From Sipunculus nudus (lineage: Eukaryota > Annelida > Sipuncula > Golfingiida > Sipunculidae), in NCBI GenBank assembly GCA_026874595.1, contig CM049316.1:15441839-15505838 (forward strand): a DNA stretch of 64,000 bases. The letters are read 5' to 3'. Below the pieces are notes generated by a model that searched no databases, was not told the origin of the DNA, and saw only the letters and a list, made by a program, of their open reading frames with translations. Shown here piece after piece: positions 34,806 to 62,539 of the stretch (its first letter is position 1; each line of letters opens with the position of its first letter). A program made the translations under genes and the position numbers.

Positions 34806-34973
34806 TTAAGAGCTCAAGATATCCTATTTGTGTGATATTCTGACTGCCTATAAAAGCAGTTTATGGAGATATTCTACATGCATGTCGTATAAAAATTAAG
34901 AGCTCAAGATATCCTATTTGTGTGATATTCTGACTGCCTATAAAAGCAGTTTATGGAGATATTCTACATGCAT
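34794..34973 (+). repeat. Perfect 90-bp tandem duplication
   Basis: GTCGTATAAAAATTAAGAGC begins at 34794 and again at 34884. The two 90-bp copies, each ending in CTACATGCAT, appear identical. The first copy begins inside the last bases of element D. Confidence 0.95.
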
Positions 34974-37018
34974 CTGATCTTAAGTTAAAGGCTGATATCA
35001 TTCAATACATTTTTATCATCCCATTTAAACATCTGTTAATTTATAGTTTTCTTGCAATATTTTAACTAAAACAGTAGTTTATTCAGTGCATATTTTTAAA
35101 ATCTAGATAAATATTATGTTAAATTAGTCCTGCCTCTTTACACATGCTTTTAGCTGTTTCTTCAATTGGCAATTTCTTGGTTTATTTTTATAGTCTTTAT
35201 GGCAGATTTCGCACTATTAAACTTCAAACACACTGGCTGAATATTATCATATATGAAAGGATATCATGCATACTATGGGTTGTTAATGCTGAATTATAAG
35301 TATATGTGGTAAAATGGTATGAAGCATTTTTCACTAATAGCAATTTAGCCAGAAGAGACCAGATACAAACAGTGGCAATTCCTACAGCTCAGCTGACTCA
35401 CAAAGAGGTAATTAAGCTATGAAACTCTGGGAGTTCATCGGACCACACCCATATCTACCTTGTGTACCCACCATCTCAGTGTATTACAAGCATTGTAGTA
35501 AAGGGAGCTGCATGGTGTACTTGTCACAGTGTGAACCAAGGTCTCCATGATAAATATGGCCACCTGAAAAAATAACTGCTCAATAAATATGAAACTGTGA
35601 CTCCCTATTCTTTACAGATTTTTTTTTAAGATAACTTGATTAAACGTTACTTACTGTGGCTCTTGGGTTGATTAATTCAAAGACATATTTACTTGTTTTA
35701 ATTAAGAATGCAAAATATTAATTCCATCAAGATAAAATTGAAAACTTTGATTTGTTCAAGAATATGCATTTTTTCAGGAAAATTTGTACTTTTTTTTAAT
35801 TGTTCCTACTATTTGGGGCAAAAAATGAGATATTTTGTCTTGACCACTAAAATTTGCCTGCTCTCAGGTCCTAGAGTCTGCAGAATAATCTATAATTTTT
35901 CTTTACCTGGCCTTACTGTTTCTAATGGCAGACATTTCACAATTGCTTGCTGTACAAAAAGGTAATCATAAACAGTGGTACAAATGCCCTGAAAGTACCA
36001 AGTCTGCAGCTTTGAAGTCACCATTAAATCTCCAAGTATGCATCAGTCCACCGACCAAGAAACTGAACACCTAGCTGGAAACCCTAGAAACGTGTGCGAG
36101 TTCCATAAGCCCACTGAAGGGGGGCCTCGCATCTTTGGAGGCGTGATGAACTCTTACATTGACTGATCATTCTGATTCTCGCACAAAGAATGTACGAGCA
36201 CCAAAGGATTAGATACTCATAGACAGCTAAGAGTATTGTCTCATAGTCCTATCATGGTATTCTAATCAGGTCCCTGCTGACAATTTGCTGAACATAACAT
36301 TTTCAATAAGCTTACAACAGTTACTGACCATTCTCCTATTCCTGATAATAAGCCCTCAATCCTGTTCCCCAGCATGTTACTTTAACACTGTTATCCTATT
36401 CTGCACTTGAATTTTATCCTGGCAACTATTGTTTATCTCACCATTTTTTTTATTATTTTATGCAATAACACTACTGTATAAGAGATTTTTTTAGCAATGT
36501 TTCAGTCAAGATCATGATGATCAAATTCTTATTATGCTATATTAAGTTGAAACTGGAAGTAAAAGTGAAAAGTGAATAGGACAGCACTCAGTTTAGAGTA
36601 AATACCTCAGCTATAGAAGAACATTCAGAAAAGAATAAAAGAGGAAGTACATTATTTTAAAGTTGCCTATTCTGATATATGTGACATCTATTAACTAAAG
36701 ACAATCCCTTTAACCTTTCTCAAAGATAGGCCAGGCTCTTGATTTATTTATAACCCATTGTTTATAACAGGTTGGGCCCCCCCAAAAATAATCCAAACAT
36801 GCACAACAAGAATATCAGGCAATAAGTAAAGACAAACCATAGTTTTGCAAAGGGCATTTTGCATCATGTGACCTTTCTACTTCCACATATTATCAACCAT
36901 ACACCTTAGGTTACAAGATTTTCCCCTTTGTCAACACTGTTGTGTATAATAACCCATTGTAGAAAAACAAGCTCAAACCACCATTACAGAGGCTTTATCA
37001 GAACTTTCTTTACATGTA
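34974..37018. other. Anonymous DNA, no gene seen
   Basis: No supportable gene. A less AT-rich stretch at 35990-36230 is unique-looking but not identified. The 85-codon frame at 35708-35965 has no recognised domain. Confidence 0.5.
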
Positions 37019-37097
37019 TTACCTGTAAAGATTCAGTAATATGTATTAATATTACCTGTAAAGATTCAGTAATAAGTATTAATATTACCTGTAAAAA
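37019..37097 (+). repeat. 33-bp tandem repeat, about 2.3 copies
   Basis: ACCTGTAAAGATTCAGTAAT starts at 37021 and 37054, and ACCTGTAAA recurs at 37087. Confidence 0.93.
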
Positions 37098-37636
37098 ATA
37101 ATTAATCTGTATTCAGAGTGAGCCAGAAATTACATAAATTCAATAGAAAAAGTATATGAAAAGCTTTCTTTAAACAATCCATCAAGCTGTGTGGGAACAT
37201 GAACTTTAATCTTACTGTCTGCTGGCCTATCTGCACAAAACAGCAAAAAAACTTACAAAAGAGCCATCAGATTTTAAGAACTCTATAATCTGAGTGCTTT
37301 TGAGGTGACAGTAATAGGAAAGAGAAAAGTGATATGCTAAGGTAAATAAATACTGCATCTACATTTTGTTAAACTTTATACTTAAACTTAAATGACGATT
37401 TAAATTTTGAATTCCTAATACTAGTACCAGAAACGTAAGACCAAGTTTCTTGAAACATCCGATAATACTTAGTCATGCTGATGACAAGGAAAGCAAATTA
37501 TTAAAATAAAATGGGTTATACCCTCCATGGTGAATGCAAAACATCTGGTTTTATATAAACATATCATGTCACCTGAGCAAAATAACATGTAAATTTCAGA
37601 ACCATATTCCACTTGGTCAACAGAAAGATGGGTTCA

Positions 37637-37983
37637 TTTTAATCTTACAGCTTACTTGAACCTTTTTTTTTTATCTTACAGCTTACTTTAACTTTTTTTT
37701 ATCTTACAGCTTACTTTAACCTTTTTTTAATCTTACATCTTACTTTTACCTTTTTTTAATCTAACATCTTACTTTACCTTCATTTATCTTACAGCTTACT
37801 TTAACTTTTTTTTAATCCTTCAGCTTAATTTTACCTTTTTTATCTTACATCCTACTTTTACCTTTTTTAATCTCACACCTTTTAACTCTTTTTAATCTTA
37901 CAGCTTACATTTACCTTTTTCATTCACACAGCTTATACTTTTACCTTTTTAAAGCTGTAATCGTAGAGCTCACTTTTACCTTT
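37637..37983 (+). repeat. ~30-bp minisatellite of T-tract plus CTTACAG
   Basis: About a dozen imperfect units of TTTTTTTATCTTACAGCTTA plus CTTTAACC. Each unit has a pyrimidine tract ending in ACAG and a CTTAC/CTAAC-like heptamer, so each resembles a 3' splice acceptor with a branch site. Units degrade toward the right edge. Confidence 0.85.
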
Positions 37984-38171
37984 TGTTAGCTGCTTTATCT
38001 GAGAGCAAAACCTATGGAAAAATACAGATATTTTATGATGGTAATAAGAGAGAATGGATACAGATGATTAACTGCCAGGATAACCTGGAATGTTGTCACA
38101 GTGATGAACTGGCGGGTCATATTTTGAAGGGATCAGCAAGTAAATGGAAAGCAGATGACCTGTGCATTTGA
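37983..38171 (+). CDS. Weak candidate exon or ORF after acceptor-like array
   Basis: A 62-codon open stretch starts right after the T-rich minisatellite, with TTTTGTTAG just before it as a possible acceptor, and ends at a TGA. The translation is mixed and protein-like (several Asp, Glu, Lys and three Cys) and not repeat-derived. I recognise no domain, and there is no conserved start context. It could equally be chance or non-coding. Confidence 0.15.
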   Translation: MLAALSESKTYGKIQIFYDGNKREWIQMINCQDNLECCHSDELAGHILKGSASKWKADDLCI

Positions 38172-38483
38172 CATTTACATCAAATTCCAGCAGGACTCAG
38201 GGATGACCTCCCAGAATCCCTTACCTCAGATCACGTGGGTCATATCTTTCTGACAATTATCAGACACCTGTGACATTCAGAGCCACATTTTGTCTCTGCC
38301 TAGGAAAGCTAAATGTCATCTGAAGAAGTAATGCAAAGGAAAACCATGGCCTGTCTGCCCCTGTAAATGTCTCAAAAGTTGGCAGAGTAGCTGCCCTATT
38401 ATACATCAGATTCAGAGAAAAATATGTCATGCAATACTTTATTCACTACTTGATCCCCCTTAAAATACCTGCTGTCTATGATG

Positions 38484-38512
38484 CCCCCCCCCCCAAAAAA
38501 AAAAAAAAAAAA
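38484..38512. repeat. C11-A18 homopolymer pair
   Basis: Eleven C residues followed directly by about eighteen A residues. Length here is likely to be unreliable in sequencing. Confidence 0.95.
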
Positions 38513-41500
38513 TTTTCATCTCAATAATTCATCATTGTGGCCAGGGCCAATAGTTGAAACAGATTTTAACTGTTGTGTGATATATACTGATGGAAGGTGC
38601 TGTTTGACAAAACTTATGACTACTTAACGTGGCCATGACAATGGCAGGGAAGGCAATGAATATACACTTTCCACAGCAGCAGAACAAATACCAATTAAAG
38701 AAATGGGGATTTTAAAGGCTCAGTAATCTCCTGAAAAAATGACAGAAAAAAATGTTGTTAGATACTGGGGGATTTCTAGCAATTGCTGTTCGTATGAATA
38801 AATTCCTCACTTGAATTTTTTATCTTTCTAAAGACATAAAATTTGGCATGGATTACAAATACAAAGTGTAAATTAAAAACATAAACAGAAAATTCAATTC
38901 GGAATTCAAACTTACATACTGTTTAAGAAAATTTATGATTTGCTATTATGAAGTTGTTAAATTTATTTGCACAAGGTACTTATATTGTTTCTATCATTTC
39001 CTGTAAAACACTCCCATTGGGTTAATGTCTAATCATCAAACACTATCAACCAGTACTTAAATATTTTCATGTTTTCCTGTCATGCATATAACTAAAAATT
39101 TAATTTTAGGTTTTAAAAAGCATGAAAGCTCATAAAAGCCTATCCATGAAGAAACAGACTTCTTCTGTCCCCTACATTAACATCCATTATATCTTGAAGT
39201 CCTTTTTTCATTTTAATTCTTGTGGTATTTTGTCCATTACAACCCATGCCAATTATTACCTTAATATGTTGAGTCTTGTAATGTTTTATCTGGCTCATAT
39301 TTTATGACAAAACAAATGTCCTGATCCATTATGTGAGCATATGTGTGCATATGTACAGAGAAGTCTAATAATACCTGGAAGCTTCAATGCAATTGCTGTA
39401 TGGAGGCATTCTCATACTGCCATCCTAATTGAAAATTGTGTGATGCATTTTACAGAGTGACATACATGAGAGCTCTGTATGGCTCTACTGTCCAATCAAA
39501 TATCATTGTATATTGAGACATGATTCCCTTAAAAGCAGACACAACAATCATCACTAAATTGAAGCACGGCCTTTTGTTTTATTCAGGTCAGTTCATGCCT
39601 AGTCTTGCAAACCATTGTGGTCATCACTGGGATGATTGCTTTTTTTAATTACCCCCAAAAATGCAATATATTCATTTTTGTCTGACATCCCATGGAGAAG
39701 AAAAGGATTTGCAACATATCATAATTAGAAAATTATGAAAAGCAGATAAAACCTTAATTATAATTTAAACTTTTAAATAATATTAAAAAAATATTTCCAT
39801 AGTAAAAAGGTTTATACACATCTCACAAATATTAAGGATTTACTAATAAACTTTCAATATAGTGATTTCTTATTCTGGAAATGGGGAACTAGTGTCATCT
39901 GTTATCATTTGATCCTTATTTATAACATAAAACAAACTGCCTTTCCCAGTTAATATTATATATTTACTGGAAATATTTATATAATAGATAATATTATCTG
40001 GGAATAGATATATAAGTATATTTCATAGTATGTAATATTCATATGCTGTTAGATTTTATCTGAATTTTTCTGCATAATTTAAATTTAGGTATAACTTTTG
40101 AAAATTAGGGAATTAGTTGGAGTAAATTTAATCTATGAATGTTTATTATATGTATATATTTAAGTAACACTTGAATATATAAAGAAAATAAAAATAATGA
40201 AATTTACAACATCACAATAAAAAATAAATAAAAAAGTAATTACTTTTATAATTATGATGATATTATCATTTTTATCTAACAGTTTACATAAGTTTCTAAA
40301 TGACAGAAGCATGAGAATAAACAGGAAGAAAAGGTCATATATTTGTTACTGTTATGGCTGATGTAACATATTATGCAGCAACATCTTTCAAGGTCCATGA
40401 AAAAGTATAGTCCAAGTTGACTGTGAATGTTCAACTATTGATCCTTGAAACCAGTTAAGTGGATGCAGTCTTTAAAGTGCAGTGCCTGGTTTATCAAAAA
40501 CAAGTGCTGAGAGGCAACAAGCTCCATAAAGATTAATGTAACACAGCTAGGCTAGGATGCTGCAAGGGCCAGTCACCCAAGTAATCCCCAGTAAAGGTGT
40601 GGTCTTATAAAAAAAGTACTGTAGAGAACTTACCAAGAGATCGAGACTGGCCAGGTATCCAGGCTGCTAGCCACAGCCCTGTGTCTGAGTAACAACACCA
40701 GCAAGTCAACAGTTCAGCAGGGACAGGTAGCCACACACCTAGTCAAGCTGGTTATAGCATTACTGTCAGTCTGTTGCTGATAAGGGTAGTGAGCCTGAGA
40801 CCTAACTGACAAGGCTAGCAGTACTGAGAGAGCGCTAATATCCCTACTGGCTGCCTCAGCCTCCTCAAGTGCCTACCTTACTGATAGATGCTGCCAGTCT
40901 TAGACCCCGCAGTGCTGCAGCCTGTCACACTACTTCTGTGGTTAATGCTGTTTTATTTGATATATATACATACAATATGACAGCTGCTTTTTTGATGGGG
41001 TCACTCTATGAGAAGAAACCTCTCATTATAGACTCCTACAGCTTGTACTTAATGCTGTTCATAATGTTAAAGGTCTGATCTGGGGCTTGTAAAAGCACCT
41101 GTCTGTACCAGGGGTCATGTCTAATTACAGTTTGTTAAGGAATGTATGCTATTTAAAAACTGGCCTTCAAATCAGATACAATATAATTTAAAGAATCATT
41201 AAAGCCCTCATGACATTGAGTGAACCTGCTCTTCCTAATAGTATCTTGGTGGTTCAGTAGTCATGTTACAGGCTGCAGCAGAGGCAAAGGGTTAGCCCTA
41301 GGGACAACAAATTGTCATCACAGGGTAACAAGAACCCTGGCTGATAGACTAGTGTGGTATATTGACCTTCACTATGAAGGATATGTTTTACACCTGTCTA
41401 TATGTTTGCCTGTTGGTTTGTTGGCAGGATTACATAACAACTTTTGAACTGATTTCAAACAAATGCTGAAAACTGGATCTAAAGTATACATAAGGCAACC

Positions 41501-41533
41501 TTAAAGTGATTACCATGTATCTTCACCTTGAGC
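38513..41533. other. Anonymous DNA, no gene seen
   Basis: Very AT-rich between 39700 and 40280. A less AT-rich stretch at 40580-40960 carries a 69-codon frame (40869-41078) without a recognised domain. Nothing else is supportable. Confidence 0.5.
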
Positions 41534-41589
41534 ATATACATTTGCCAGCATTGAATCTGCACTGCGAGTCAGTACATGAATGTCAACCT

Positions 41590-41760
41590 GACTGGTCTCT
41601 GTGGTCTACAGGTAAAAGTGCAGGTCTTAAAGCCAGGAAATCTTGAGTTGGAATCCCAGCCAAGAAGAAGTGAGATATTCTAAGTTATCCCCCACCCAGG
41701 ATGAATGGCCTGCTGGCTTAATGACAACATTGTGCCTGACAATCAGGTTTCACACAAATA
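41590..41760 (+). mobile_element. tRNA-headed SINE-like segment in unit 1 (repeated in every unit)
   Basis: TGGTCTACAGG (41602-41612) fits a pol III A box, and GTTGGAATCCC (41647-41657) fits a B box with one change from GTTCGAATCCC. Spacing between them is 34 bp, as in tRNA genes. CCACCCAGGATGAATGG (41693-41709) matches the core of the SINE at 30731 (CCACCCAGGAGTGAAAGGG). The same segment recurs at +1663, +3326, +4989, +6652 and +8687. Confidence 0.65.
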
Positions 41761-41762
41761 TG

Positions 41763-44700
41763 AGTAAACCTCTCAGGGGTTCCTTGGTGTTAAATAAGTA
41801 CACCTTTCATGGGTCCCTTGGTGTTAAACAAATACATCTTTCATGGGTTCCTTGGAGTTAAACAAGAACATCTTTCATGGGTTCCTTGGTGTTAAACAAG
41901 AACACCTTTCATAGGTTCCTTGGTGTTAAACAAGTGCACCTTTCATGGGTTCCTTGGTGTTAAACAAGTACACCTTTCATGGGTTCCTTGGTGTTAAACA
42001 AGTACATCTTTCATGGGTTCCTTGGAGTTAAACAAGTGCACCTTTCATGGGTTCCTTGGTGTTAAACAAGTACACCTTTCATGGGTTCCTTGCAGTTAAA
42101 CAAGAGCACCTTTCATGGGTTCCTTGGTGTTAAACAAGTACACCTTTCATGGGTTCCTTGATGTTAAACAAGTACACCTTTCATGGGTTCCTTGGTGTTA
42201 AACGTGTGCACCTTTCCGGAGTTCCTTGGTGTTAAACAAGTACACCTTTCATGGGTTCCTTGGAGTTAAACAAGTTCACCTTTCATGGGATCTTTGAAGT
42301 TAAACAAGTGCACCTTTCATGGGTTCCTTGGTGTTAAACAAGTACACCTTTAATGGGTTCCTTGGTGTTAAACAAGTACATCTTTCATGGGTTCTTTGAA
42401 GTTAAACAAGTACACCTTTCATGGGTTCCTTGCAGTTAAACAAGAGCACCTTTCATGGGTTCCTTGGTGTTAAACAAGTACACCTTTCATGGGTTCCTTG
42501 ATGTTAAACAAGTACACCTTTCATGGGTTCCTTGGTGTTAAACGTGTGCACCTTTCCGGAGTTCCTTGGTGTTAAACAAGTACACCTTTCATGGGTTCCT
42601 TGGAGTTAAACAAGTTCACCTTTCATGGGATCTTTGAAGTTAAACAAGTGCACCTTTCATGGGTTCCTTGGTGTTAAACAAGTACACCTTTAATGGGTTC
42701 CTTGGTGTTAAACAAGTACACCTTTTATGGGTTCCTTGGTGTTAAACAAATCCCCTGGAGTTAAACGAGTGCACCTTTCGTGGGTTCCTTGGAGATAAAC
42801 GAGTGCACCTTTCATGGGTTCCTTGGAGTTAAACGAGTGGGTTCCTTGGTGTTAAACAAGTGCACCATTCATGGGTTCTTTGGTGTTAAACAAGTACACC
42901 TTTCATGGATTCCTTGGTTTTAAAGAGTGCACCTTTCATGGGTGTCTTAGTGTTATGACCCAGCAAATGTGGCAGATTACACGTACAGTCCCACATGTGT
43001 GAAAAGTTTGGTTGACATCAGCTGGGTAAACAATGTGTCACCATGGATTCCTTAGTGTTAAACGAGTGCACCTTTCATGGGTTCCTTGGTGTTAAATGAT
43101 TGCCTTCTCATGGGTTCCTTGGTGTAAAACAAGTGCACCTTTCATGGGATCCTTGGTGTTAAATGAGTGCACCTTTCATGGGTTCCTGTGTGTTAAATAT
43201 ACATTTGCCAGCATTGAATCTGCACTGCGAGTCAGTACATGAATGTCAACCTGACTGGTCTCTGTGGTCTACAGGTAAAAGTGCAGGTCTTAAAGCCAGG
43301 AAATCTTGAGTTGGAATCCCAGCCAAGAAGAAGTGAGATATTCTAAGTTATCCCCCACCCAGGATGAATGGCCTGCTGGCTTAATGACAACATTGTGCCT
43401 GACAATCAGGTTTCACACAAATATGAGTAAACCTCTCAGGGGTTCCTTGGTGTTAAATAAGTACACCTTTCATGGGTCCCTTGGTGTTAAACAAATACAT
43501 CTTTCATGGGTTCCTTGGAGTTAAACAAGAACATCTTTCATGGGTTCCTTGGTGTTAAACAAGAACACCTTTCATAGGTTCCTTGGTGTTAAACAAGTGC
43601 ACCTTTCATGGGTTCCTTGGTGTTAAACAAGTACACCTTTCATGGGTTCCTTGGTGTTAAACAAGTACATCTTTCATGGGTTCCTTGGAGTTAAACAAGT
43701 GCACCTTTCATGGGTTCCTTGGTGTTAAACAAGTACACCTTTCATGGGTTCCTTGCAGTTAAACAAGAGCACCTTTCATGGGTTCCTTGGTGTTAAACAA
43801 GTACACCTTTCATGGGTTCCTTGATGTTAAACAAGTACACCTTTCATGGGTTCCTTGGTGTTAAACGTGTGCACCTTTCCGGAGTTCCTTGGTGTTAAAC
43901 AAGTACACCTTTCATGGGTTCCTTGGAGTTAAACAAGTTCACCTTTCATGGGATCTTTGAAGTTAAACAAGTGCACCTTTCATGGGTTCCTTGGTGTTAA
44001 ACAAGTACACCTTTAATGGGTTCCTTGGTGTTAAACAAGTACATCTTTCATGGGTTCTTTGAAGTTAAACAAGTACACCTTTCATGGGTTCCTTGCAGTT
44101 AAACAAGAGCACCTTTCATGGGTTCCTTGGTGTTAAACAAGTACACCTTTCATGGGTTCCTTGATGTTAAACAAGTACACCTTTCATGGGTTCCTTGGTG
44201 TTAAACGTGTGCACCTTTCCGGAGTTCCTTGGTGTTAAACAAGTACACCTTTCATGGGTTCCTTGGAGTTAAACAAGTTCACCTTTCATGGGATCTTTGA
44301 AGTTAAACAAGTGCACCTTTCATGGGTTCCTTGGTGTTAAACAAGTACACCTTTAATGGGTTCCTTGGTGTTAAACAAGTACACCTTTTATGGGTTCCTT
44401 GGTGTTAAACAAATCCCCTGGAGTTAAACGAGTGCACCTTTCGTGGGTTCCTTGGAGATAAACGAGTGCACCTTTCATGGGTTCCTTGGAGTTAAACGAG
44501 TGGGTTCCTTGGTGTTAAACAAGTGCACCATTCATGGGTTCTTTGGTGTTAAACAAGTACACCTTTCATGGATTCCTTGGTTTTAAAGAGTGCACCTTTC
44601 ATGGGTGTCTTAGTGTTATGACCCAGCAAATGTGGCAGATTACACGTACAGTCCCACATGTGTGAAAAATTTGGTTGACATCAGCTGGGTAAACAATGTG

Positions 44701-47700
44701 TCACCATGGATTCCTTAGTGTTAAACGAGTGCACCTTTCATGGGTTCCTTGGTGTTAAATGATTGCCTTCTCATGGGTTCCTTGGTGTAAAACAAGTGCA
44801 CCTTTCATGGGATCCTTGGTGTTAAATGAGTGCACCTTTCATGGGTTCCTGTGTGTTAAATATACATTTGCCAGCATTGAATCTGCACTGCGAGTCAGTA
44901 CATGAATGTCAACCTGACTGGTCTCTGTGGTCTACAGGTAAAAGTGCAGGTCTTAAAGCCAGGAAATCTTGAGTTGGAATCCCAGCCAAGAAGAAGTGAG
45001 ATATTCTAAGTTATCCCCCACCCAGGATGAATGGCCTGCTGGCTTAATGACAACATTGTGCCTGACAATCAGGTTTCACACAAATATGAGTAAACCTCTC
45101 AGGGGTTCCTTGGTGTTAAATAAGTACACCTTTCATGGGTCCCTTGGTGTTAAACAAATACATCTTTCATGGGTTCCTTGGAGTTAAACAAGAACATCTT
45201 TCATGGGTTCCTTGGTGTTAAACAAGAACACCTTTCATAGGTTCCTTGGTGTTAAACAAGTGCACCTTTCATGGGTTCCTTGGTGTTAAACAAGTACACC
45301 TTTCATGGGTTCCTTGGTGTTAAACAAGTACATCTTTCATGGGTTCCTTGGAGTTAAACAAGTGCATCTTTCATGGGTTCTTTGAAGTTAAACAAGTACA
45401 CCTTTCATGGGTTCCTTGCAGTTAAACAAGAGCACCTTTCATGGGTTCCTTGGTGTTAAACAAGTACACCTTTCATGGGTTCCTTGATGTTAAACAAGTA
45501 CACCTTTCATGGGTTCCTTGGTGTTAAACGTGTGCACCTTTCCGGAGTTCCTTGGTGTTAAACAAGTACACCTTTCATGGGTTCCTTGGAGTTAAACAAG
45601 TTCACCTTTCATGGGATCTTTGAAGTTAAACAAGTGCACCTTTCATGGGTTCCTTGGTGTTAAACAAGTACACCTTTAATGGGTTCCTTGGTGTTAAACA
45701 AGTACATCTTTCATGGGTTCTTTGAAGTTAAACAAGTACACCTTTCATGGGTTCCTTGCAGTTAAACAAGAGCACCTTTCATGGGTTCCTTGGTGTTAAA
45801 CAAGTACACCTTTCATGGGTTCCTTGATGTTAAACAAGTACACCTTTCATGGGTTCCTTGGTGTTAAACGTGTGCACCTTTCCGGAGTTCCTTGGTGTAA
45901 AACAAGTACACCTTTCATGGGTTCCTTGGAGTTAAACAAGTTCACCTTTCATGGGATCTTTGAAGTTAAACAAGTGCACCTTTCATGGGTTCCTTGGTGT
46001 TAAACAAGTACACCTTTAATGGGTTCCTTGGTGTTAAACAAGTACACCTTTTATGGGTTCCTTGGTGTTAAACAAATCCCCTGGAGTTAAACGAGTGCAC
46101 CTTTCGTGGGTTCCTTGGAGATAAACGAGTGCACCTTTCATGGGTTCCTTGGAGTTAAACGAGTGGGTTCCTTGGTGTTAAACAAGTGCACCATTCATGG
46201 GTTCTTTGGTGTTAAACAAGTACACCTTTCATGGATTCCTTGGTTTTAAAGAGTGCACCTTTCATGGGTGTCTTAGTGTTATGACCCAGCAAATGTGGCA
46301 GATTACACGTACAGTCCCACATGTGTGAAAAGTTTGGTTGACATCAGCTGGGTAAACAATGTGTCACCATGGATTCCTTAGTGTTAAACGAGTGCACCTT
46401 TCATGGGTTCCTTGGTGTTAAATGATTGCCTTCTCATGGGTTCCTTGGTGTAAAACAAGTGCACCTTTCATGGGATCCTTGGTGTTAAATGAGTGCACCT
46501 TTCATGGGTTCCTGTGTGTTAAATATACATTTGCCAGCATTGAATCTGCACTGCGAGTCAGTACATGAATGTCAACCTGACTGGTCTCTGTGGTCTACAG
46601 GTAAAAGTGCAGGTCTTAAAGCCAGGAAATCTTGAGTTGGAATCCCAGCCAAGAAGAAGTGAGATATTCTAAGTTATCCCCCACCCAGGATGAATGGCCT
46701 GCTGGCTTAATGACAACATTGTGCCTGACAATCAGGTTTCACACAAATATGAGTAAACCTCTCAGGGGTTCCTTGGTGTTAAATAAGTACACCTTTCATG
46801 GGTCCCTTGGTGTTAAAAAAATACATCTTTCATGGGTTCCTTGGAGTTAAACAAGAACATCTTTCATGGGTTCCTTGGTGTTAAACAAGAACACCTTTCA
46901 TAGGTTCCTTGGTGTTAAACAAGTGCACCTTTCATGGGTTCCTTGGTGTTAAACAAGTACACCTTTCATGGGTTCCTTGGTGTTAAACAAGTACATCTTT
47001 CATGGGTTCCTTGGAGTTAAACAAGTGCATCTTTCATGGGTTCTTTGAAGTTAAACAAGTACACCTTTCATGGGTTCCTTGCAGTTAAACAAGAGCACCT
47101 TTCATGGGTTCCTTGGTGTTAAACAAGTACACCTTTCATGGGTTCCTTGATGTTAAACAAGTACACCTTTCATGGGTTCCTTGGTGTTAAACGTGTGCAC
47201 CTTTCCGGAGTTCCTTGGTGTTAAACAAGTACACCTTTCATGGGTTCCTTGGAGTTAAACAAGTTCACCTTTCATGGGTTCTTTGAAGTTAAACAAGTGC
47301 ACCTTTCATGGGTTCCTTGGTGTTAAACAAGTACACCTTTAATGGGTTCCTTGGTGTTAAACAAGTACATCTTTCATGGGTTCTTTGAAGTTAAACAAGT
47401 ACACCTTTCATGGGTTCCTTGCAGTTAAACAAGAGCACCTTTCATGGGTTCCTTGGTGTTAAACAAGTACACCTTTCATGGGTTCCTTGATGTTAAACAA
47501 GTACACCTTTCATGGGTTCCTTGGTGTTAAACGTGTGCACCTTTCCGGAGTTCCTTGGTGTTAAACAAGTACACCTTTCATGGGTTCCTTGGAGTTAAAC
47601 AAGTTCACCTTTCATGGGATCTTTGAAGTTAAACAAGTGCACCTTTCATGGGTTCCTTGGTGTTAAACAAGTACACCTTTAATGGGTTCCTTGGTGTTAA

Positions 47701-50700
47701 ACAAGTACACCTTTTATGGGTTCCTTGGTGTTAAACAAATCCCCTGGAGTTAAACGAGTGCACCTTTCGTGGGTTCCTTGGAGATAAACGAGTGCACCTT
47801 TCATGGGTTCCTTGGAGTTAAACGAGTGGGTTCCTTGGTGTTAAACAAGTGCACCATTCATGGGTTCTTTGGTGTTAAACAAGTACACCTTTCATGGATT
47901 CCTTGGTTTTAAAGAGTGCACCTTTCATGGGTGTCTTAGTGTTATGACCCAGCAAATGTGGCAGATTACACGTACAGTCCCACATGTGTGAAAAGTTTGG
48001 TTGACATCAGCTGGGTAAACAATGTGTCACCATGGATTCCTTAGTGTTAAACGAGTGCACCTTTCATGGGTTCCTTGGTGTTAAATGATTGCCTTCTCAT
48101 GAGTTCCTTGGTGTAAAACAAGTGCACCTTTCATGGGATCCTTGGTGTTAAATGAGTGCACCTTTCATGGGTTCCTGTGTGTTAAATATACATTTGCCAG
48201 CATTGAATCTGCACTGCGAGTCAGTACATGAATGTCAACCTGACTGGTCTCTGTGGTCTACAGGTAAAAGTGCAGGTCTTAAAGCCAGGAAATCTTGAGT
48301 TGGAATCCCAGCCAAGAAGAAGTGAGATATTCTAAGTTATCCCCCACCCAGGATGAATGGCCTGCTGGCTTAATGACAACATTGTGCCTGACAATCTGGT
48401 TTCACACAAATATGAGTAAACCTCTCAGGGGTTCCTTGGTGTTAAATAAGTACACCTTTCATGGGTCCCTTGGTGTTAAACAAATACATCTTTCATGGGT
48501 TCCTTGGAGTTAAACAAGAACATCTTTCATGGGTTCCTTGGTGTTAAACAAGAACACCTTTCATAGGTTCCTTGGTGTTAAACAAGTGCACCTTTCATGG
48601 GTTCCTTGGTGTTAAACAAGTACACCTTTCATGGGTTCCTTGGTGTTAAACAAGTACATCTTTCATGGGTTCCTTGGAGTTAAACAAGTGCATCTTTCAT
48701 GGGTTCTTTGAAGTTAAACAAGTACACCTTTCATGGGTTCCTTGCAGTTAAACAAGAGCACCTTTCATGGGTTCCTTGGTGTTAAACAAGTACACCTTTC
48801 ATGGGTTCCTTGATGTTAAACAAGTACACCTTTCATGGGTTCCTTGGTGTTAAACGTGTGCACCTTTCCGGAGTTCCTTGGTGTTAAACAAGTACACCTT
48901 TCATGGGTTCCTTGGAGTTAAACAAGTTCACCTTTCATGGGATCTTTGAAGTTAAACAAGTGCACCTTTCATGGGTTCCTTGGTGTTAAACAAGTACACC
49001 TTTAATGGGTTCCTTGGTGTTAAACAAGTACATCTTTCATGGGTTCTTTGAAGTTAAACAAGTACACCTTTCATGGGTTCCTTGCAGTTAAACAAGAGCA
49101 CCTTTCATGGGTTCCTTGGTGTTAAACAAGTACACCTTTCATGGGTTCCTTGATGTTAAACAAGTACACCTTTCATGGGTTCCTTGGTGTTAAACGTGTG
49201 CACCTTTCCGGAGTTCCTTGGTGTTAAACAAGTACACCTTTCATGGGTTCCTTGGAGTTAAACAAGTTCACCTTTCATGGGATCTTTGAAGTTAAACAAG
49301 TGCACCTTTCATGGGTTCCTTGGTGTTAAACAAGTACACCTTTAATGGGTTCCTTGGTGTTAAACAAGTACACCTTTTATGGGTTCCTTGGTGTTAAACA
49401 AATCCCCTGGAGTTAAACGAGTGCACCTTTCGTGGGTTCCTTGGAGATAAACGAGTGCACCTTTCATGGGTTCCTTGGAGTTAAACGAGTGGGTTCCTTG
49501 GTGTTAAACAAGTGCACCATTCATGGGTTCTTTGGTGTTAAACAAGTGCACCTTTCATGGATTCCTTGGTTTTAAAGAGTGCACCTTTCATGGGTGTCTT
49601 AGTGTTATGACCCAGCAAATGTGGCAGATTACACGTACAGTCCCACATGTGTGAAAAGTTTGGTTGACATCAGCTGGGTAAACAATGTGTCACCATGGAT
49701 TCCTTAGTGTTAAACGAGTGCACCTTTCATGGGTTCCTTGGTGTTAAATGATTGCCTTCTCATGGGTTCCTTGGTGTAAAACAAGTGCACCTTTCATGGG
49801 ATCCTTGGTGTTAAATGAGTGCACCTTTCATGGGTTCCTGTGTGTTAAATGAGTGCATCTTTCATTGGTTCCTAAGTGTTAAACAAGTACACCTTTCATA
49901 GGTTCCTTTGTGTAAAACAAGTACACCTTTCATGGGTTTCCTGGTGTTAATTAAGTACACCTTTAATGGGTTCCTTGGTGTTAAACAAGTACACCTTTCA
50001 TGGATTCCTTGGTGTTAAATGAGTGCACCTTTCATGGGTTCCTGTGTGTTAAATGAGTGCACCTTTCATGGGTTCCTTGGTGTTAAACAAGTACACCTTC
50101 CATGGGTGTCTTGGTGTTATGACCCAGCTTCTCATGAGTTCCTTGGTGTAAAACAAGTGCACCTTTCATGGGATCCTTGGTGTTAAATGAGTGCACCTTT
50201 CATGGGTTCCTGTGTGTTAAATATACATTTGCCAGCATTGAATCTGCACTGCGAGTCAGTACATGAATGTCAACCTGACTGGTCTCTGTGGTCTACAGGT
50301 AAAAGTGCAGGTCTTAAAGCCAGGAAATCTTGAGTTGGAATCCCAGCCAAGAAGAAGTGAGATATTCTAAGTTATCCCCCACCCAGGATGAATGGCCTGC
50401 TGGCTTAATGACAACATTGTGCCTGACAATCAGGTTTCACACAAATATGAGTAAACCTCTCAGGGGTTCCTTGGTGTTAAATAAGTACACCTTTCATGGG
50501 TCCCTTGGTGTTAAACAAATACATCTTTCATGGGTTCCTTGGAGTTAAACAAGAACATCTTTCATGGGTTCCTTGGTGTTAAACAAGAACACCTTTCATA
50601 GGTTCCTTGGTGTTAAACAAGTGCACCTTTCATGGGTTCCTTGGTGTTAAACAAGTACACCTTTCATGGGTTCCTTGGTGTTAAACAAGTACATCTTTCA

Positions 50701-52150
50701 TGGGTTCCTTGGAGTTAAACAAGTGCATCTTTCATGGGTTCTTTGAAGTTAAACAAGTACACCTTTCATGGGTTCCTTGCAGTTAAACAAGAGCACCTTT
50801 CATGGGTTCCTTGGTGTTAAACAAGTACACCTTTCATGGGTTCCTTGATGTTAAACAAGTACACCTTTCATGGGTTCCTTGGTGTTAAACGTGTGCACCT
50901 TTCCGGAGTTCCTTGGTGTTAAACAAGTACACCTTTCATGGGTTCCTTGGAGTTAAACAAGTTCACCTTTCATGGGATCTTTGAAGTTAAACAAGTGCAC
51001 CTTTCATGGGTTCCTTGGTGTTAAACAAGTACACCTTTAATGGGTTCCTTGGTGTTAAACAAGTACATCTTTCATGGGTTCTTTGAAGTTAAACAAGTAC
51101 ACCTTTCATGGGTTCCTTGCAGTTAAACAAGAGCACCTTTCATGGGTTCCTTGGTGTTAAACAAGTACACCTTTCATGGGTTCCTTGATGTTAAACAAGT
51201 ACACCTTTCATGGGTTCCTTGGTGTTAAACGTGTGCACCTTTCCGGAGTTCCTTGGTGTTAAACAAGTACACCTTTCATGGGTTCCTTGGAGTTAAACAA
51301 GTTCACCTTTCATGGGATCTTTGAAGTTAAACAAGTGCACCTTTCATGGGTTCCTTGGTGTTAAACAAGTACACCTTTAATGGGTTCCTTGGTGTTAAAC
51401 AAGTACACCTTTTATGGGTTCCTTGGTGTTAAACAAATCCCCTGGAGTTAAACGAGTGCACCTTTCGTGGGTTCCTTGGAGATAAACGAGTGCACCTTTC
51501 ATGGGTTCCTTGGAGTTAAACGAGTGGGTTCCTTGGTGTTAAACAAGTGCACCATTCATGGGTTCTTTGGTGTTAAACAAGTGCACCTTTCATGGATTCC
51601 TTGGTTTTAAAGAGTGCACCTTTCATGGGTGTCTTAGTGTTATGACCCAGCAAATGTGGCAGATTACACGTACAGTCCCACATGTGTGAAAAGTTTGGTT
51701 GACATCAGCTGGGTAAACAATGTGTCACCATGGATTCCTTAGTGTTAAACGAGTGCACCTTTCATGGGTTCCTTGGTGTTAAATGATTGCCTTCTCATGG
51801 GTTCCTTGGTGTAAAACAAGTGCACCTTTCATGGGATCCTTGGTGTTAAATGAGTGCACCTTTCATGGGTTCCTGTGTGTTAAATGAGTGCATCTTTCAT
51901 TGGTTCCTAAGTGTTAAACAAGTACACCTTTCATAGGTTCCTTTGTGTAAAACAAGTACACCTTTCATGGGTTTCCTGGTGTTAATTAAGTACACCTTTA
52001 ATGGGTTCCTTGGTGTTAAACAAGTACACCTTTCATGGATTCCTTGGTGTTAAATGAGTGCACCTTTCATGGGTTCCTGTGTGTTAAATGAGTGCACCTT
52101 TCATGGGTTCCTTGGTGTTAAACAAGTACACCTTCCATGGGTGTCTTGGT
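41763..52150 (+). repeat. 34-bp minisatellite (TTAAACAAGTACACCTTTCA...)
   Basis: The unit is TTAAACAAGTACACCTTTCA followed by TGGGTTCCTTGGTG, 34 bp. Variants (GTGCACC, ACATC, GGAGTT, GCAGTT, GAAGTT, TTAATGGG, TTTCCGGAG) occur in a fixed order, so the array is organised rather than random. A 340-bp block of ten 34-mers is repeated inside each unit, for example GCAGTTAAACAAGAGC at 42092 and 42432. Confidence 0.97.
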
Positions 52151-52162
52151 GTTATGACCCAG
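48093..52162 (+). repeat. 2035-bp tandem duplication with defined breakpoint
   Basis: Block 48093-50127 is repeated as 50128-52162. Both begin CTTCTCATGAGTTCC and end GTTATGACCCAG. The ATGAGTTCC variant is at 48098 and 50133, while units 1, 2, 3, 5 and 6 have ATGGGTTCC at the matching place, which marks the copied edge. Both blocks also share AAGTGCACCTTTCATGGATT where earlier units have AAGTACACC. Block 1 has one private change (AATCTGG for AATCAGG). Confidence 0.93.
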
Positions 52163-52389
52163 CAAATGTGGCATATTACACATACAGGTCCCAAAGGTGT
52201 GATACAAAAAGTTTGGATGACATCAGCTGGGTTAACCATGTGTCACTGCACTGTCAAATTAGTCCAACTGAAAATCAAATGGAATGGAAACCCAAGACAA
52301 TATGCTGATCTAAATATAAGGACTGTGATAACTTTGACTACAGTACCAGTAATGAGTGAATGATTACAATCCAGGTCATCATGAGGGCA

Positions 52390-52815
52390 ACAAAATGTAA
52401 TATATACAAGCAAAATGCTACAAAACATAACATCCAAAGATTAAATGGCAACAGACTGTAATAACTACAGCAAAATGCCACAAAACATACCAGTAGTGGC
52501 AAAAGATCAAATGCCCCTGCAATAATAATCACTGAGAAAATGCCACAATATACATTATACCCAAAGATAAAATGGCAGCAGAATATAATATCCATACAGA
52601 CAAAATGTCACAAAACATAATGGCAAAAGACAAAATGCCACTGACTGTAATAGGTATACTCACTGACAAAATGCCAGGGTATACATTATGCCCAGAGATA
52701 AAATGGCAGCTGAATATAGTATCTATACAGACAAAAAATGCCACAAAATATAATGGCAAAAGACAACTGACTGTAATACCCACAAGGTGCCATAGTAAGT
52801 AATAACCACAAAGAA
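52390..52815 (+). repeat. Degenerate minisatellite (GACAAAATGCCAC), left of A3
   Basis: Imperfect repeats of AAAGACAAAATGCCACAAAA, with TAATATCCATACAGA and TAATGGCAAAAG phrases, about 38-45 bp apart. The array resumes immediately after element A3 at 56026. Open frames on both strands (52243-52828) follow the repeat. Confidence 0.82.
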
Positions 52816-53810
52816 ACAAGGGACCCATGGGTCACGGCGCTCAGCTGATCATGATTGGACTATACATGTTTCTCCACTGTGATACTATATCAAGTCGATA
52901 AGCTCATGAATATCATGGACATGTTGGGCTATTATAAAGGAATGTAATGTAATATGTGAGTAAATGATAAATGAAATTACCTGACTGATGGATTAATAGA
53001 GTAAAATATAGTGGTTTATGTTTTACTTATTAAGGAGGGGTTGAAAATTGTGATATATTTGAGCAAATATGAATGCATTGACAGCAGAAATAAGCAGTAG
53101 TAGAATGATGAGAAGGCTATTTGTTGAAGGATCTAAAGTGTATGGTAGTCTGCAAGCTTTCAATTTGACAGATATGATGTTATGATTAATTATGCTGATG
53201 AAGTGATTTATGAATTTGCGACTGTATGACACAATATCTCTTTAGTCTTGACAAGGTACATTATTGTGATGCCCACTATGTCTACATATTACACAATATT
53301 GACATAATTTCTGGCATGTACATAGGTACCTATGGACGAATAGTTATACAAAATATTAAAGTATGAATATATCTGATTCATCTTGTTCTTGCTTACTGAG
53401 GCTGACTTTGGGATGGGGTTCCGAGAAGGGAAAAGTGAAGGCAGCACGAAGGTGGATGTAGAAATATTCTATTGTAATGTTATTCATTTATATAAGAATA
53501 TGAAAAGCTGAGAGGAAAGGGGCCCTCCTACTTGGTAATAGTAAAGTTCTAAATATATGATTGCAAACTAATACTCTGACAAGACTGTCATGAAGAAAAA
53601 CAGTAAAATTTTGAGATACTGTGATGCATATGAAAATTTACAGATGGACAGGCAAGTGGACAGAATGGACTAATACCTTTATTTCACTTTCAAGGGAATA
53701 ATGCATTTAAGTTTATATATGAGCCTATTTTTTTAGCATATCCACTTTTTCCATTAAGAAGTTTTTATCTGAACCATTTTTTTTATTTACAGGTTTTATA
53801 AATTTTTAAT

Positions 53811-53950
53811 AAAAAAAACTGAAACTATAAGTTAAAATATTAGAATTGTTGCAAAAATTGCAATCATTATATATACAGAGTAAAAAAACTGAAACTATAA
53901 GTGAAAATATTAGAATTGTTGCAAAAGTTGCAATCATTATATATCCAGAG
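53811..53950 (+). repeat. 70-bp tandem duplication inside A3
   Basis: AAAAAACTGAAACTATAAGT starts near 53813 and 53883. The two copies differ at about five positions. Confidence 0.93.
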
Positions 53951-54502
53951 TGTAGCTCATATTGGGTCATATTATGCATACACATATATTTTATTATTTT
54001 TAAATCATAAATGTTTAATCTGAATTTAAAAGAAAATAATGCCACAACATGGCATCCACAAGAATATTCCTTGAATCACTAATAAAAAGTTTTGCACCTG
54101 AGATTTCAGTACATGCTTAATTTTATTCACCAAAATAAAATAAGAGATTCAGTAAATTTGATAAAAAAAAACATTTTTTCAAATAAAGTATACACACTGT
54201 CAGTTGAATGGGGGACAAACAATATCATTGTGCTAATAACTATTCCAGTTTTAATTTATTACTGGAATTAATAGTCAATTTCACACCTGGTGAAGTTTTT
54301 ACTCTTCTGAAGTAAGGAATTGCTTATCTGATGAACATCCACACTTTCATAGCAATACACCACCTTGTGGACACAATTAAATGTACACTTTAATCATTGT
54401 AACCCTGGTGGTACAATACAAAATCTAAAATGTAGCATAGCCTAGAATAAGAATGAATCATATACAGAAAATAATAACATTCTACTAGTTTATGCACCAT
54501 CT

Positions 54503-54517
54503 GGGGGGGGGGGGGGG
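54503..54517. repeat. G15 homopolymer
   Basis: A run of 15 G residues inside element A3; the exact length is likely to be uncertain. Confidence 0.95.
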
Positions 54518-56025
54518 AGTGCAGGGCAGAGGGGATTAGCCTGCTAGTAGTGGCCAAGCTGGGGTGGGTTACATAATGCAAGTGAAGGCTACACTACTAG
54601 GTGGGCTAGATGTAAACAACACTTGACAGGGTGTATGAAAACTTGAATAAAAGCTATTCTTTCCAATTTCTTTGAAATTTCAGATTTTAAAAGATTAAAT
54701 CCTTATGTATATATGCTGTGAAAATTAAATTAACAGTGCTTACAGGGAAAAAATGTGTCATTGCCAAAGTTGCACAAAATTTAAGGTATTGATTTTTTAT
54801 TTATGCTAATAACTTGAAAAATTTACAAAATTCAGATCTAATTTTGGCTAAACAATTGAATCTTGATTAAATAAAGTTATATTCCTGAAAAAAGTCTCTA
54901 GGTTCAGCAATTCTCATGTTAGGTGAGTAATTATATTTCCTGATTTTTTAAAAATTGCATTATATTTTGGCCCATAACTTCAAAATAATACCTAATACTG
55001 ACCTAATTTTTGGTATGTTCATAGAAAATGTATTAAAGAATGTGAATACTAAATATGATCAAAAACAGATCAGTGGTTTTGATATTAAGCAGCCTTGAAG
55101 TGTAACAATGGCTTTTTTTATGGAAAACTGAGGTTTATCCTTAATATCTCGAAGGAACAAAGTCCTAATGCCCCAATTTTCGGTATGGTAGGAGATTTTG
55201 GGGACATCTAACATTATGCCAACAGCCTGGGGAGCATAGAGATGTGCAATGAATGACCTACAGTCATCAAAGTGGACTGCTTGACAATGTAAGGGAATAC
55301 AACAAGAGCCTCCAAAAAATTCAATAACTAGCCTAATTTTGCAGCTTTTATTTTCAAATTTCAGATTTTAACAGATTATATCCTTATGTGTACATGCTGT
55401 GAAAATTAAATCCACAGTACTAACAGGAAAAAAACGTGCCGTGGCCAAAGTTGGGCAAAATTTAAGGTACCAATTTGATATTTTTGCCAATATTTAAAAA
55501 ACTTTAACAGATTTTGATCTAATTTTTGGTAGCTACAATTAAATTTTGATTAAATAAAGTTGTATAACTGAAAAAAAGTCCCGAACTTTAACACTTTTGG
55601 TCTTAAGTGACCAAATATCTTTCCTGATTTTTTTACAAAGTCCATCATGTTTGGGCCCATAACTTTTTTAAATTAAATAATACTGACTTAATTTCTGGCA
55701 TGTACATAGGAACTATATAGAGGAATATTTAGGGTAAATATGAAGAAAACCAGGTGAGTGGTTTTAATATTAGGCAGTCCTGAAGTGTAAAAATAGATTT
55801 CTAATAAAAAATCTCGAAGGAACAAAGTCCTATTGACCCAATTTTTGGCATGGTAGGAGATTTTGGGGACATCTAACTGTATGCCGAATTTCAGATTCGT
55901 AGGTCCAATGGTGTCAAAATGTGCCAATCTTACGGACGGACATCCGGACAGACGGACGGACAGACAGACGGACGGACAATGAACCACGACTATAGCTCAG
56001 ATGACATAGTCAGCTGAGCTAAAAA

Positions 56026-56270
56026 TGCAACAGAATGTAATATCCGTAGACAAAATGCCACATGCATGTCCAAAGATAAAAATGCCACTGTATATAATAT
56101 CTACAGACAAAATGCCACATGCATGCTCAAAGGGGCCCAATTACCTATAAAGCATGTTGAATTAACACAAAAAATAGCTTCTTCCCTTTAAAATAAATTT
56201 GTACCTGCCAAAATATGCCACCAGATGTAATATTCACAGACAAAATGTCACAATTAAGACACTATGTTCA
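56026..56270 (+). repeat. Degenerate minisatellite, right of A3
   Basis: GACAAAATGCCACATGCATG and AATATCCGTAGACAAAATGC continue the repeat found at 52390-52815, so the array was one before A3 inserted. Confidence 0.8.
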
Positions 56271-57480
56271 TAGATAAAATACCAGAAGAAAAATATGGAA
56301 AAAGTTGGCACATGTAAAGTAGTGCAGAATATAAAGAATATAAAGTGGTGCACTGTGAAATAAAAATTGGCCCTAATTAATACAGAGGGTGCAAAAATTC
56401 TGGAAAAAAAACAGTCAAGTAATTGTTCAGAAAAGCTGCTAAGTTGCACAGCATGACGGTGAGATGATAAGGCACAGATATAATAGCAGATTGTTCAGTT
56501 GAAAATACATAACTATTTGGCAAGATAATACATTATTCTATATAGCTGATAACACTGATGGGCACAACTTTTCCAATGTAACTAATAAGCTATACTGATA
56601 CAGAAAGAAGTGGTTACATACAGGATGCCAAAACCCCATTTAACCTAAAATTATACAAATTGCTTTTGTGATCTTTTCCTTTCTTCTTACTAGTACATTT
56701 GCTAACTAAAGATTCTGAGTGAAAATATGTGCAGATATGATGTAAAAGTATAAATAACTCTGTTCTACCCTGAACATATAAAACTTGGGTGTTTCAATTT
56801 AGATGGTGAAGCTTTTGGATGTGAATGCAAGATTGAACAAAATCAACCTGTCTGTCTCTCTCTCTGTTTATATTTCTGCCTCTCTCTCTCTCATTATTTC
56901 TGTTTGTCTCTTTCTCTATCTTGTATCATGCATGTTCAACCCATATTGATATAAACCTATATCCAATATATTGTTACAATATTTAACATTTCCAAGCATT
57001 TAATTCTCACCTTGGACATTCAGTATGTATCATTTGCAAACTATTTTCAATTTTAATCAAACAGAAGTTCACAAACTGATTAAATGAAAACAATCAGGTT
57101 TAGTTTTTCTACAATACAAATAAGAACATTCTGAAACAACAAACCTTAATTATATTTATTTCATTAATGGATAAGAAGTAAACATTGGATGAAGTCTCTA
57201 CATATTTATTTCAGCAAAGATGCCCCCAGAAAATACATTTGATATTTACAAGTGGCCTATCAAACATTTCAAAAGTGATAATTTAAAGTATAAATACAAA
57301 GAAAAATGCACAAGATATAGCAGAATAAATCATTTAGTAAACCAATTCTAATGAAAGCTTCACTGAAAAATGTCTTCAGTTTAGATTTGGAAACTAGCAA
57401 ATTTTTACTTGATCTCAAAAAGGGAATTCTCCATTAGCTCCAAGTTAAACTTATAAAATTTGTAGTCATGTTAGCCATGG
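56271..57480. other. Anonymous DNA with (TC)n tract
   Basis: A (TC)n-rich tract spans about 56852-56925. No gene seen. The region is otherwise unique and AT-rich. Confidence 0.55.
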
Positions 57481-57659
57481 TGGTCCTCTTGCTGGAGTGG
57501 TTGTAATGCAGGACATAACCGAGTGGGTAGTGCACTGTTATTTTCTTGTATATTTAATCTTGTTCATTCTTACACTTGAGTCTAGCACATCTAGGTCTAG
57601 TAACAGGATGAGAGCATTGTTAGATCAGCCCTCCACAGGAGAGTGAAATTACTGATATT

Positions 57660-57790
57660 ACACCCACTAAAATTGCACCTGAGCAGAGCTGTGGTGGTCT
57701 GTACCTTACACAGAATGCTCAGACAGGAAGTCCCATGGTTGAGTCTGATTTTCAACGGAGACCAGGTGATACTTTTAACCCGAGACGTTT
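57660..57790 (+). mobile_element. Possible old SINE remnant
   Basis: TGGTGGTCTGTACC could be a decayed A box, GGTTGAGTCTG a decayed B box about 45 bp on, and GACCAGGTGATACTTTTAAC a possible core. Each match is weak; I list it only because the order agrees with the two better SINEs. Confidence 0.22.
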
Positions 57791-60700
57791 CCGATCATAA
57801 GATATCATGAGCTGCTGTCTAGACGTGGCACTTTCACAGAACACTATCTCTCTTTAAGCAGCTTGCCTTATCATGAGAAAATTTGACGGGAGTGTCATTA
57901 CACACCCCTATCATGGAGATTTCACTGATTTCTGAGCTCTGTAAGTGAATTTAGATGAACCTAATACAGCAAACAATTAGTAACACAGCTGCTGACTGCA
58001 AGCTGGCATATGTATGCGACTGCTTGCAGAAAGATGAGAAAAATACTGCATAATCTGGTTAGTCCTGTTTACCGATACTTCCAAATAAAGTTTCAGCCGA
58101 TTCTTTGGAACATTTTAACAGATTTCTGCATTTGTATGCAATATAATGTTCCAGGATTATTGTTAGTTTTACCCATGTTTTCTGCAATGAAGAGAAGTGT
58201 AAATTTTAACTTTTTTAGATTATTTTTGCACTTTAGGCAATACTAGTTCCAGGGACTTTTGACTTTTTATAAGGCCTTTAGAAAGCATATACCATGCAGC
58301 ACTTTCAGGTGTCTTCTAGGATTTTTCATTTGGTTTAAGCTTCTCTTGGTGGTAAAAATTTCAGATATTTCCATGATATCTGTGGATTTGTATTTTGATT
58401 ATTTGTATATTTTTGAGGACCAGAGGGATGTATTATAGAAAGGTCATGATCATTAGGAGTTATTTAGCAGAAACCAGAACTAAGCTAGGGGTCAATACAC
58501 ATTTATGCTAGAAGCCCTATTTATCATTGTGTGCAATATGTTGCTGATCTAAGGGTAAAGCATGGTTTCATCATATTACTTTAAAATTTGAATAACAGAA
58601 AATAGCAAGGAGACATAAAAAGAGAGAAAAAAAGTTACCAATTAGAACTTGAGTCCAAGCCTATAGAGAATTTAACCATCATGTGGGTACACAATGCCAA
58701 GCTTCAGTGACAGATTCTCCTGGTGAATGGCAGAGCAAAGCACTGGCCCTTATTCCTATCAATGGGTGGCTTGAACTTGGGGACAAGGGAATCACCCTGT
58801 CTCACAATGGGAAAGAAATCTTTGAATGAAAAACATATGACGGTGATCAACCCAAAAATTTATTGGATTGTTCCTTGTGTGTTATCCTAATTTTCAAAAT
58901 GTGCTTTTTGCATTAAATTGCCTACAGCAAATCAATAACATATTAGCCATGATAAAAACGCTCAGATTGAAGGTATAATGATTAACAGTGACCATGATAT
59001 TCTGCTTCAACTATACACCAATTGATTAAGAAATTTACATCAGCGAATAGAATATAATGCAGAGAAACACTAATAAGGAACTAATTTGTCATGATCAGTT
59101 GAATATAGAAAAAGGTTGACTTATAATTCTACACCCATCTATGCTCAGGGAGACTGGCACTGATGAAAGAAATTATATCTAGACAAGGAGTGTGAATCCT
59201 TTCATTTATCATTTCTTCTCCTTGTCTCAGGGAAACCTGTCTAGAAAGCCATTTTCTTTTCCCAAGATCTTCATCTAAGGGATTACTACTTTATTTTCTC
59301 AGTGTTTATTCTATCAGCTCTCAAGGAAGCATGTATAAATACCACACCTAAGTGTTAGGAAAGGATGAGAATTATTTTCTGTACATATTTCTGTTTATAA
59401 AACCAAGGGAAAAGTTTGATGAGCAAGTGCCATGCATGTTTGGCAAAACTGATATTTTGTTTTGGTGAAAATGATATTTTGAAGTCAAGTCTGAGAAACA
59501 TTACATGGTCACTATAATATGGCACTAACAGCAAGAGTGTTGCAGCTTTTTAAGAGCAGAGGTCATATGTTAGAAAATAAAATAAGGATGAGTCAAATAA
59601 ATTGAAACTGTTTATTTAACAGTTTTGATGGTAGGAGACAGGACTTGCCCACCCAGCAGCACATGATTTTATGTTGTATGGTTTCACAAGTTGGATTATC
59701 AACTCTGACATTTGAGGTAGGCTGGAGGCCCTCAAGACCATTAAAATTACATCTGATCACTGCCAGTGAAGTTTTTGTCATACCTTAGATATATCCTCAG
59801 GTGTTTTACATTATGGCCTATACCTGTTGGCAAACAAGACATGCTTGTATCGGTTCTGGTTCAGGTTTTAAATGAGTATTGCAGACACTGATGCCCTGGA
59901 AGGTATAGTCCTGCAGTATATACTTTCACCTGACTAACTGCTTTGTTAAAAACAGCCCAGAATATAAAATATTACAAATTTTGTAGACATTTAATAGAAA
60001 GTTATATACTCCAGGCATCTCATATGACTGAACATTTAAGAAACAATATAGTTTGCCTAATAAACAGAAAATAATCAAGTGCATCTTTGATGTGAAATGA
60101 TATAACAATGACCAGCTTCAAATATCTGTGACAGTCTGGATATTACATTTTGTCTAACTGCATACTGTATAGTGACAAATGTCACTGACGTGACCTACAA
60201 AAGACCAATGGAAACTTGAAAGATTTTCCCAATCTACCATGAAAAAAGAGGAGAAAGTTAATTGCTATCTTTTTATCATCAACTCAACACACTAAGGCAG
60301 TCACATACATAAAGCCCACACTGACCTCCAGGGAGATCCTTATAAATTGATAAGTTTAGATGTTTCCTTGCACTATGTACAGGAAGATGTTCCACCTATT
60401 GCTTCAAAGTGTCCCATGATGGGGGATATTAGAAAGTCTTAATTGGTTTCTTTAACTGAAAATAACCTTTTCTTAACTATATATTTACTGAAAATGGCAA
60501 AGTATATTAACAGAAAGATTATTTCCTCAAAAAATTTCAATTAACTTAAAGACAATATAGCAGGTACAGTTTCAATATTTTAAAATGAAATGCATTTGAT
60601 ATATGCAAATCATGCTAGCATATCGTAATTTGACAATTACGTGTCCCCTTACACTTCACTGTTTTTGGTTTTATCCTTAACTAAGCATGATATCTGCGGA

Positions 60701-60880: not shown

Positions 60881-60939
60881 GTAACAGGAATTGCCTTACA
60901 ACTGTCTCAGGCAGCAACTGATGACAGGAGATGATGAAT

Positions 60940-62240: not shown

Positions 62241-62256
62241 CCATCAAGTACAAGAC

Positions 62257-62463: not shown

Positions 62464-62539
62464 CTAAATGTGTGTGTTGCCAGAACAAAAAGACAGGAGA
62501 TACCCTTCATCCTAATATAAATTACAAATGTCAACACAC

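Follow-up and report, generated by a model that had tools for sequence, protein, structure and literature searches.

We found a tandem array of 10,630 bp at 41534-52163 of the window (the whole 64-kb stretch of DNA that was analyzed); a sequence-only reading of the same DNA had placed its bounds at 41536-52162. We interpret it, with a probability of about 80%, as a non-coding compound tandem array that would have grown in place, stepwise, from a single locus of about 1.9 kb consisting of a head, a minisatellite and a tail. The kind of array is ordinary, its history is unusually readable, and it points to no new mechanism. Coordinates of its features are collected in Table 1.

Table 1. Features of the compound array (positions are those of the window).
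Feature	Position	Strand	Remarks
Head of unit 1	41534..41777	+	244 bp, no minisatellite, SINE-like motifs; copies start at 43197, 44860, 46523, 48186 and 50221
A-box-like and B-box-like motifs in head	41602..41655	+	starts 41602 and 41647, 45 bp apart
First minisatellite block, unit 1	41778..42956	+	34-bp monomers, some of 23, 30 or 33 bp; from wrap-around parse
340-bp (10-monomer) internal tandem duplication, unit 1	42061..42720	+	exact 320-bp run, 42061-42380 vs 42401-42720
Tail1 (internal segment resembling right flank), unit 1	42957..43046	+	85.7% identity over 91 columns to 52156-52246
Unit 1	41534..43196	+	1663 bp
Unit 2	43197..44859	+	1663 bp; 1 difference vs unit 1
Unit 3	44860..46522	+	1663 bp
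Unit 4	46523..48185	+	1663 bp; A at 48102, absent from same column of other units
Unit 5	48186..50220	+	2035 bp head to head
Unit 6	50221..52163	+	continues into right flank
2035-bp tandem duplication, first copy	48094..50128	+	2034/2035 identical to 50129-52163
2035-bp tandem duplication, second copy	50129..52163	+	joint at 50128/50129, 1-bp microhomology
Tail2 (right boundary segment, leads into right flank)	52156..52246	+	

Each unit is made up of a 244-bp head, a block of 34-bp monomers, the 90-bp tail1 and a few further monomers. There are six heads, and their starts bear out the 1663-bp spacing that the sequence-only reading had counted four times; the next head follows after 2035 bp. 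We compared the six units without gaps over 1663 columns and found 11 variable columns and no indels, which upholds the earlier claim of recent expansion or homogenization. Any two units differ at 1 to 8 positions (15 pairs; mean 4.67 bases, 0.28%), and five of the six head copies in the window are identical, the copy at 48186 having one change. In comparison, the 28 monomers in the first block of unit 1 have a mean identity of 90% (minimum 76%). Since the monomers are this diverged and the units are not, the minisatellite looks old and the units look young. Multi-monomer units that are more alike than adjacent monomers are what defines a higher-order repeat, and this is what we found.

Minisatellites are tandem repeats with units of roughly 10-100 bp, and TRF reported a period of 34 across 41763-52154. 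One passage of PMC6947457 describes minisatellite unit size as having no agreed limit. A wrap-around parse of 41760-52170, which takes in heads, tails and shortened monomers too, gave 308 segments of 56 distinct kinds; 227 of these segments are exactly 34 nt (5 of the 227 are head sequence), and the order of the monomer variants is repeated from unit to unit. A degenerate 30-mer of the monomer has 53 matches in the window, all within the array, and none in 100 shuffles. TRF, the parse and the 30-mer together confirm the 34-bp minisatellite in fixed variant order. The exact 34-mer had no match in viral contigs, a collection in which an animal repeat is hardly expected.

Monomers of unit 1 that lie ten apart are 94.6% identical, compared with 89.5% for adjacent ones. 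The 340-bp block previously noticed inside each unit is indeed found in 6 of 6 units, and because all of them carry it, the 340-bp duplication most simply predates the units. The longest exact run at a shift of 340 is 320, 320, 194, 251, 342 and 342 bp in units 1-6, respectively. The breaks in unit 3 (45559/45899) and unit 4 (47279) fit private changes at columns 1040 and 757, and the shorter run of units 1-2 fits a tract at columns 508-527. This pattern is the trace that one 10-monomer duplication would be expected to leave. Minisatellites (VNTRs) with internal variant repeats likewise have such a 34-bp unit, ordered variants and growth by in-register duplication; unlike in those, head and tail DNA appears to have been caught in the duplications here, giving a 1663-bp compound unit.

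We found the joint TTAA/ATATAC directly before heads 2-6 (five times), and head 1 is preceded by left-flank sequence. A matching monomer that is unjoined, behind the same neighbor monomer, is kept at 49833 and 51868. Because the same joint recurs before five heads and the unjoined monomer survives, one founding event most likely made the 1663-bp unit, with the joint then copied. Read by eye, this joint has a 2-base overlap (AT).

At the right end, the 2035-bp duplication reported earlier was verified, with 1 mismatch in 2035. Identity of the two copies stops at once on both sides (on the left it extends by a single base, the C common to the joint). The left copy starts within unit 4, eight bases to the left of the private A of this unit at 48102, and the same A recurs at 50137, beyond the 2035 joint. 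Since the duplication has its own breakpoint and has carried over the unit-4 variant, the 2035-bp period reads as a single late offset tandem duplication and as no fourth nested level; 2035 bp is not a multiple of 1663. Of the four-tier organization proposed by the sequence-only reading, the 34-, 340- and 1663-bp levels nest, but the 2035-bp period does not form a further tier.

Repeats this similar are hard to assemble (there is 1 difference in 1663 positions between units 1 and 2, and 1 in 1943 between units 5 and 6), and an assembler could have inflated or compressed the copy number. However, pure assembler looping would yield identical copies, whereas 15 of 15 unit pairs differ, by substitutions alone and without an indel in 6 x 1663 columns. 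The 2035-bp block, with its separate breakpoint and its unit-4 variant, also argues against such an artifact, which we consider quite improbable. Near-identity without indels is consistent with an accurate assembly and is no proof of it.

Growth in place is consistent with what lies at the edges of the array. The tail1 copy at 44620 has 84.6% identity to the right border, and the last unit extends past the joining point of the first four. Because the right flank resembles tail1 and the last unit overruns this point, the borders on either side of the array appear to be its original ones. Undoing the joints leads to a single-unit ancestor of about 1943 bp, as a matter of arithmetic only.

A single 20-bp tract (columns 508, 522, 526 and 527) sets units 1-2 apart from units 3-6. 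Over this tract, units 3-6 carry the monomer that is found in the second 340-bp copy, so conversion probably affected units 1-2. In a test of unit order, 72 of 720 orders were at least as good (208 of 720 with the tract counted once). Neighboring units do not clearly appear to be the most similar, contrary to simple in-situ exchange.

In the proposed history, old growth of the minisatellite and duplication of the tail segment would have come first, followed by the in-register 340-bp duplication of ten monomers. An end-joining-like duplication with a 2-bp overlap would then have fused a monomer to the head start and created the 1663-bp unit. Unequal homologous exchange may next have brought the number of these units to five, accompanied by at least one conversion tract. 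Last would have come the 2035-bp offset tandem duplication at the right end, with a 1-bp overlap. The DNA shows directly that the joints exist and recur, that a variant was carried over, and that tail1 resembles the right flank. We infer how the early steps were ordered, which repair pathways acted, and that unequal exchange, not replication error, multiplied the copies. Overlaps as short as those at the joints (2 and 1 bp) are no more than chance would give and hence identify no repair pathway.

If the array grew in this stepwise manner, its copy number should differ between individuals, and the array would be a good candidate for a locus that is variable among them. In large satellite arrays, the traces of how the array began are usually gone. 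Here the founding joint, the matching unjoined monomer, the offset duplication that came later and both flanks are still present, so the succession of events can largely be read, and the array offers a clear example of the earliest stages by which a minisatellite becomes a higher-order array.

The longest stop-to-stop frame within the array is 76 aa, and the four stop-to-stop frames of at least 110 aa in the window all lie outside it. Hence, a coding function of the array was rejected. We expect the array to have no function. For the surrounding DNA, six-frame translations of 26601-41530 and 52201-64000 gave no Pfam family at E up to 0.01 in 12 of 12 translations.

The head had been called SINE-like, and this description is possible. 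Motifs like an A box and a B box are present, matching short consensus sequences at 6/6 and at least 6/7 positions, but neither ARAGORN (0 tRNAs) nor Rfam (0 matches at the gathering score, and 0 at E up to 5 on 41400-43250) identified a tRNA or another known RNA. Diverged SINEs can escape both programs. In the 55,033-base collapsed window, the short consensus sequences give 4 box pairs on the + strand and 7 on the - strand; of 2000 random 244-mers drawn from it, 29 contain such a pair. When a longer consensus is used, a different pair, at 41613/41646, scores best within the head; it is equaled in 31 of 400 head shuffles, and four other + strand sites outscore the head.

A SINE-like element at about 30597-30830 (+ strand, ends estimated) has clearer tRNA-like boxes (TGGCATAATGG and TGTTCGAGTCA) and the motif CCACCCAGGAGTGAAAGG. 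Allowing up to 3 mismatches, the longer, degenerate motif CCACCCAGGANTGAANGG has 1 match in the window, at 30731, and none in the head (42 of 100 shuffles have at least one). The head and this element have CCACCCAGGA in common; their alignment is weak, with 33 of 500 shuffles scoring as well. Taken on its motifs, the head is possibly SINE-derived. We regard it as very unlikely that the head works as a Pol III SINE promoter and that the unit is a dispersed SINE family with its own minisatellite, moving and seeding satellite arrays; if this were true, the locus would have captured a SINE on its way to becoming a satellite.

A broader form of this idea is that the array belongs to a dispersed family of mobile elements or satellites (a Helitron, a pearl-like element or a SINE-derived satellite) that carries a tandem array. 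The box-like motifs of the head and the CCACCCAGGA that the head has in common with the more convincing SINE-like element at 30.6 kb are consistent with such a family, and such elements and satellites are described for molluscs in portions of PMC5139131 and PMC11121367. However, BLAST of the head, the tripled 34-mer and the tail against the 64-kb window found no further copy beyond 41534-52246, the array is bordered by a single left and a single right flank, and the weak alignment with the 30.6-kb element is a further point against membership in such a family, which we judge unlikely. Short arms near tail1 are visible by eye (GACCCAGC and GCTGGGT); folded as DNA, the 110-nt stretch holding tail1 is no better than shuffles (112 of 200 at least as good; z 0.18).

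Among known systems, bivalve pearl-type and Helitron elements with internal tandem repeats, as treated in part of PMC5139131, resemble the array in having a tandem array between constant segments and differ from it in that neither terminal features nor, in the 64-kb window, a second copy of the array could be demonstrated. The satellite PcH-sat of the limpet Patella caerulea is related to Nin-SINE and abundant, at about 10% of the P. caerulea genome, according to sections of PMC11121367. Similarly, SINE-like origins are tabulated for Xenopus satellite 1 and a salamander Pol III satellite in PMC6947457, which also describes satellites that arose from SINE-like elements, and minisatellites that arose from Alu and B1. 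The likeness to these satellites derived from transposable elements is that a possibly SINE-derived piece was multiplied in tandem; in contrast to the abundant PcH-sat, the array comprises six units at a single place, and its head is putatively of SINE origin. Microhomology-initiated end joining and non-allelic homologous recombination are proposed for satellite growth from mobile elements in a portion of PMC12628747, and the array fits this published picture.

The likeness to centromeric alpha satellite suggested by the sequence-only reading did not extend beyond higher-order periodicity: as in alpha satellite higher-order repeats, the units are more alike than the monomers. Alpha satellite has AT-rich monomers of about 171 bp. 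In contrast, the monomer here is 34 bp, and the array is only 10.6 kb, with non-array DNA on either side. It is also less AT-rich than its flanks, with 41-42% GC in the 1-kb bins of 42001-52000 vs 29-39% in the bins of 35001-41000 and 53001-64000. CENP-B-box-like sites (1 mismatch to the consensus) have 2 matches in the window and none in the array, with a shuffle mean of 1.04; the CENP-B box is not required by every centromere. Alpha satellite was rejected on monomer length, size, composition and the absent CENP-B box, and a centromeric or pericentromeric higher-order satellite is, in our judgment, extremely improbable.

Beyond the array, we found that 23 tandem arrays with a period of at least 18 (hand-picked from 61 TRF rows, with overlaps merged and periods of 16 or less excluded) cover 27.7% of the window, 7,348 bp of this outside the main array. 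Hence, the region is rich in tandem duplications. One of them, at 34794-34973, is a perfect two-copy 90-bp tandem duplication, and since TRF gives 100% matches, it is probably very recent as well. Further tandem arrays were reported by TRF at 2392-4547 (292 bp), 14243-15273 (279), 23054-24048 (181) and 33525-34454 (337). The segments 26801-28191 and 54624-56025 form a 1.4-kb dispersed repeat pair with 75% identity, and each is internally repetitive. To the left of the array, a 26-nt inverted repeat (40913-40938/41255-41280, 85% complementary) surrounds a 368-bp block that could be a MITE. To the right, degenerate ACAAAATGCCAC repeats occur at 52409-52778 and again about 3 kb on, at 56020-56132.
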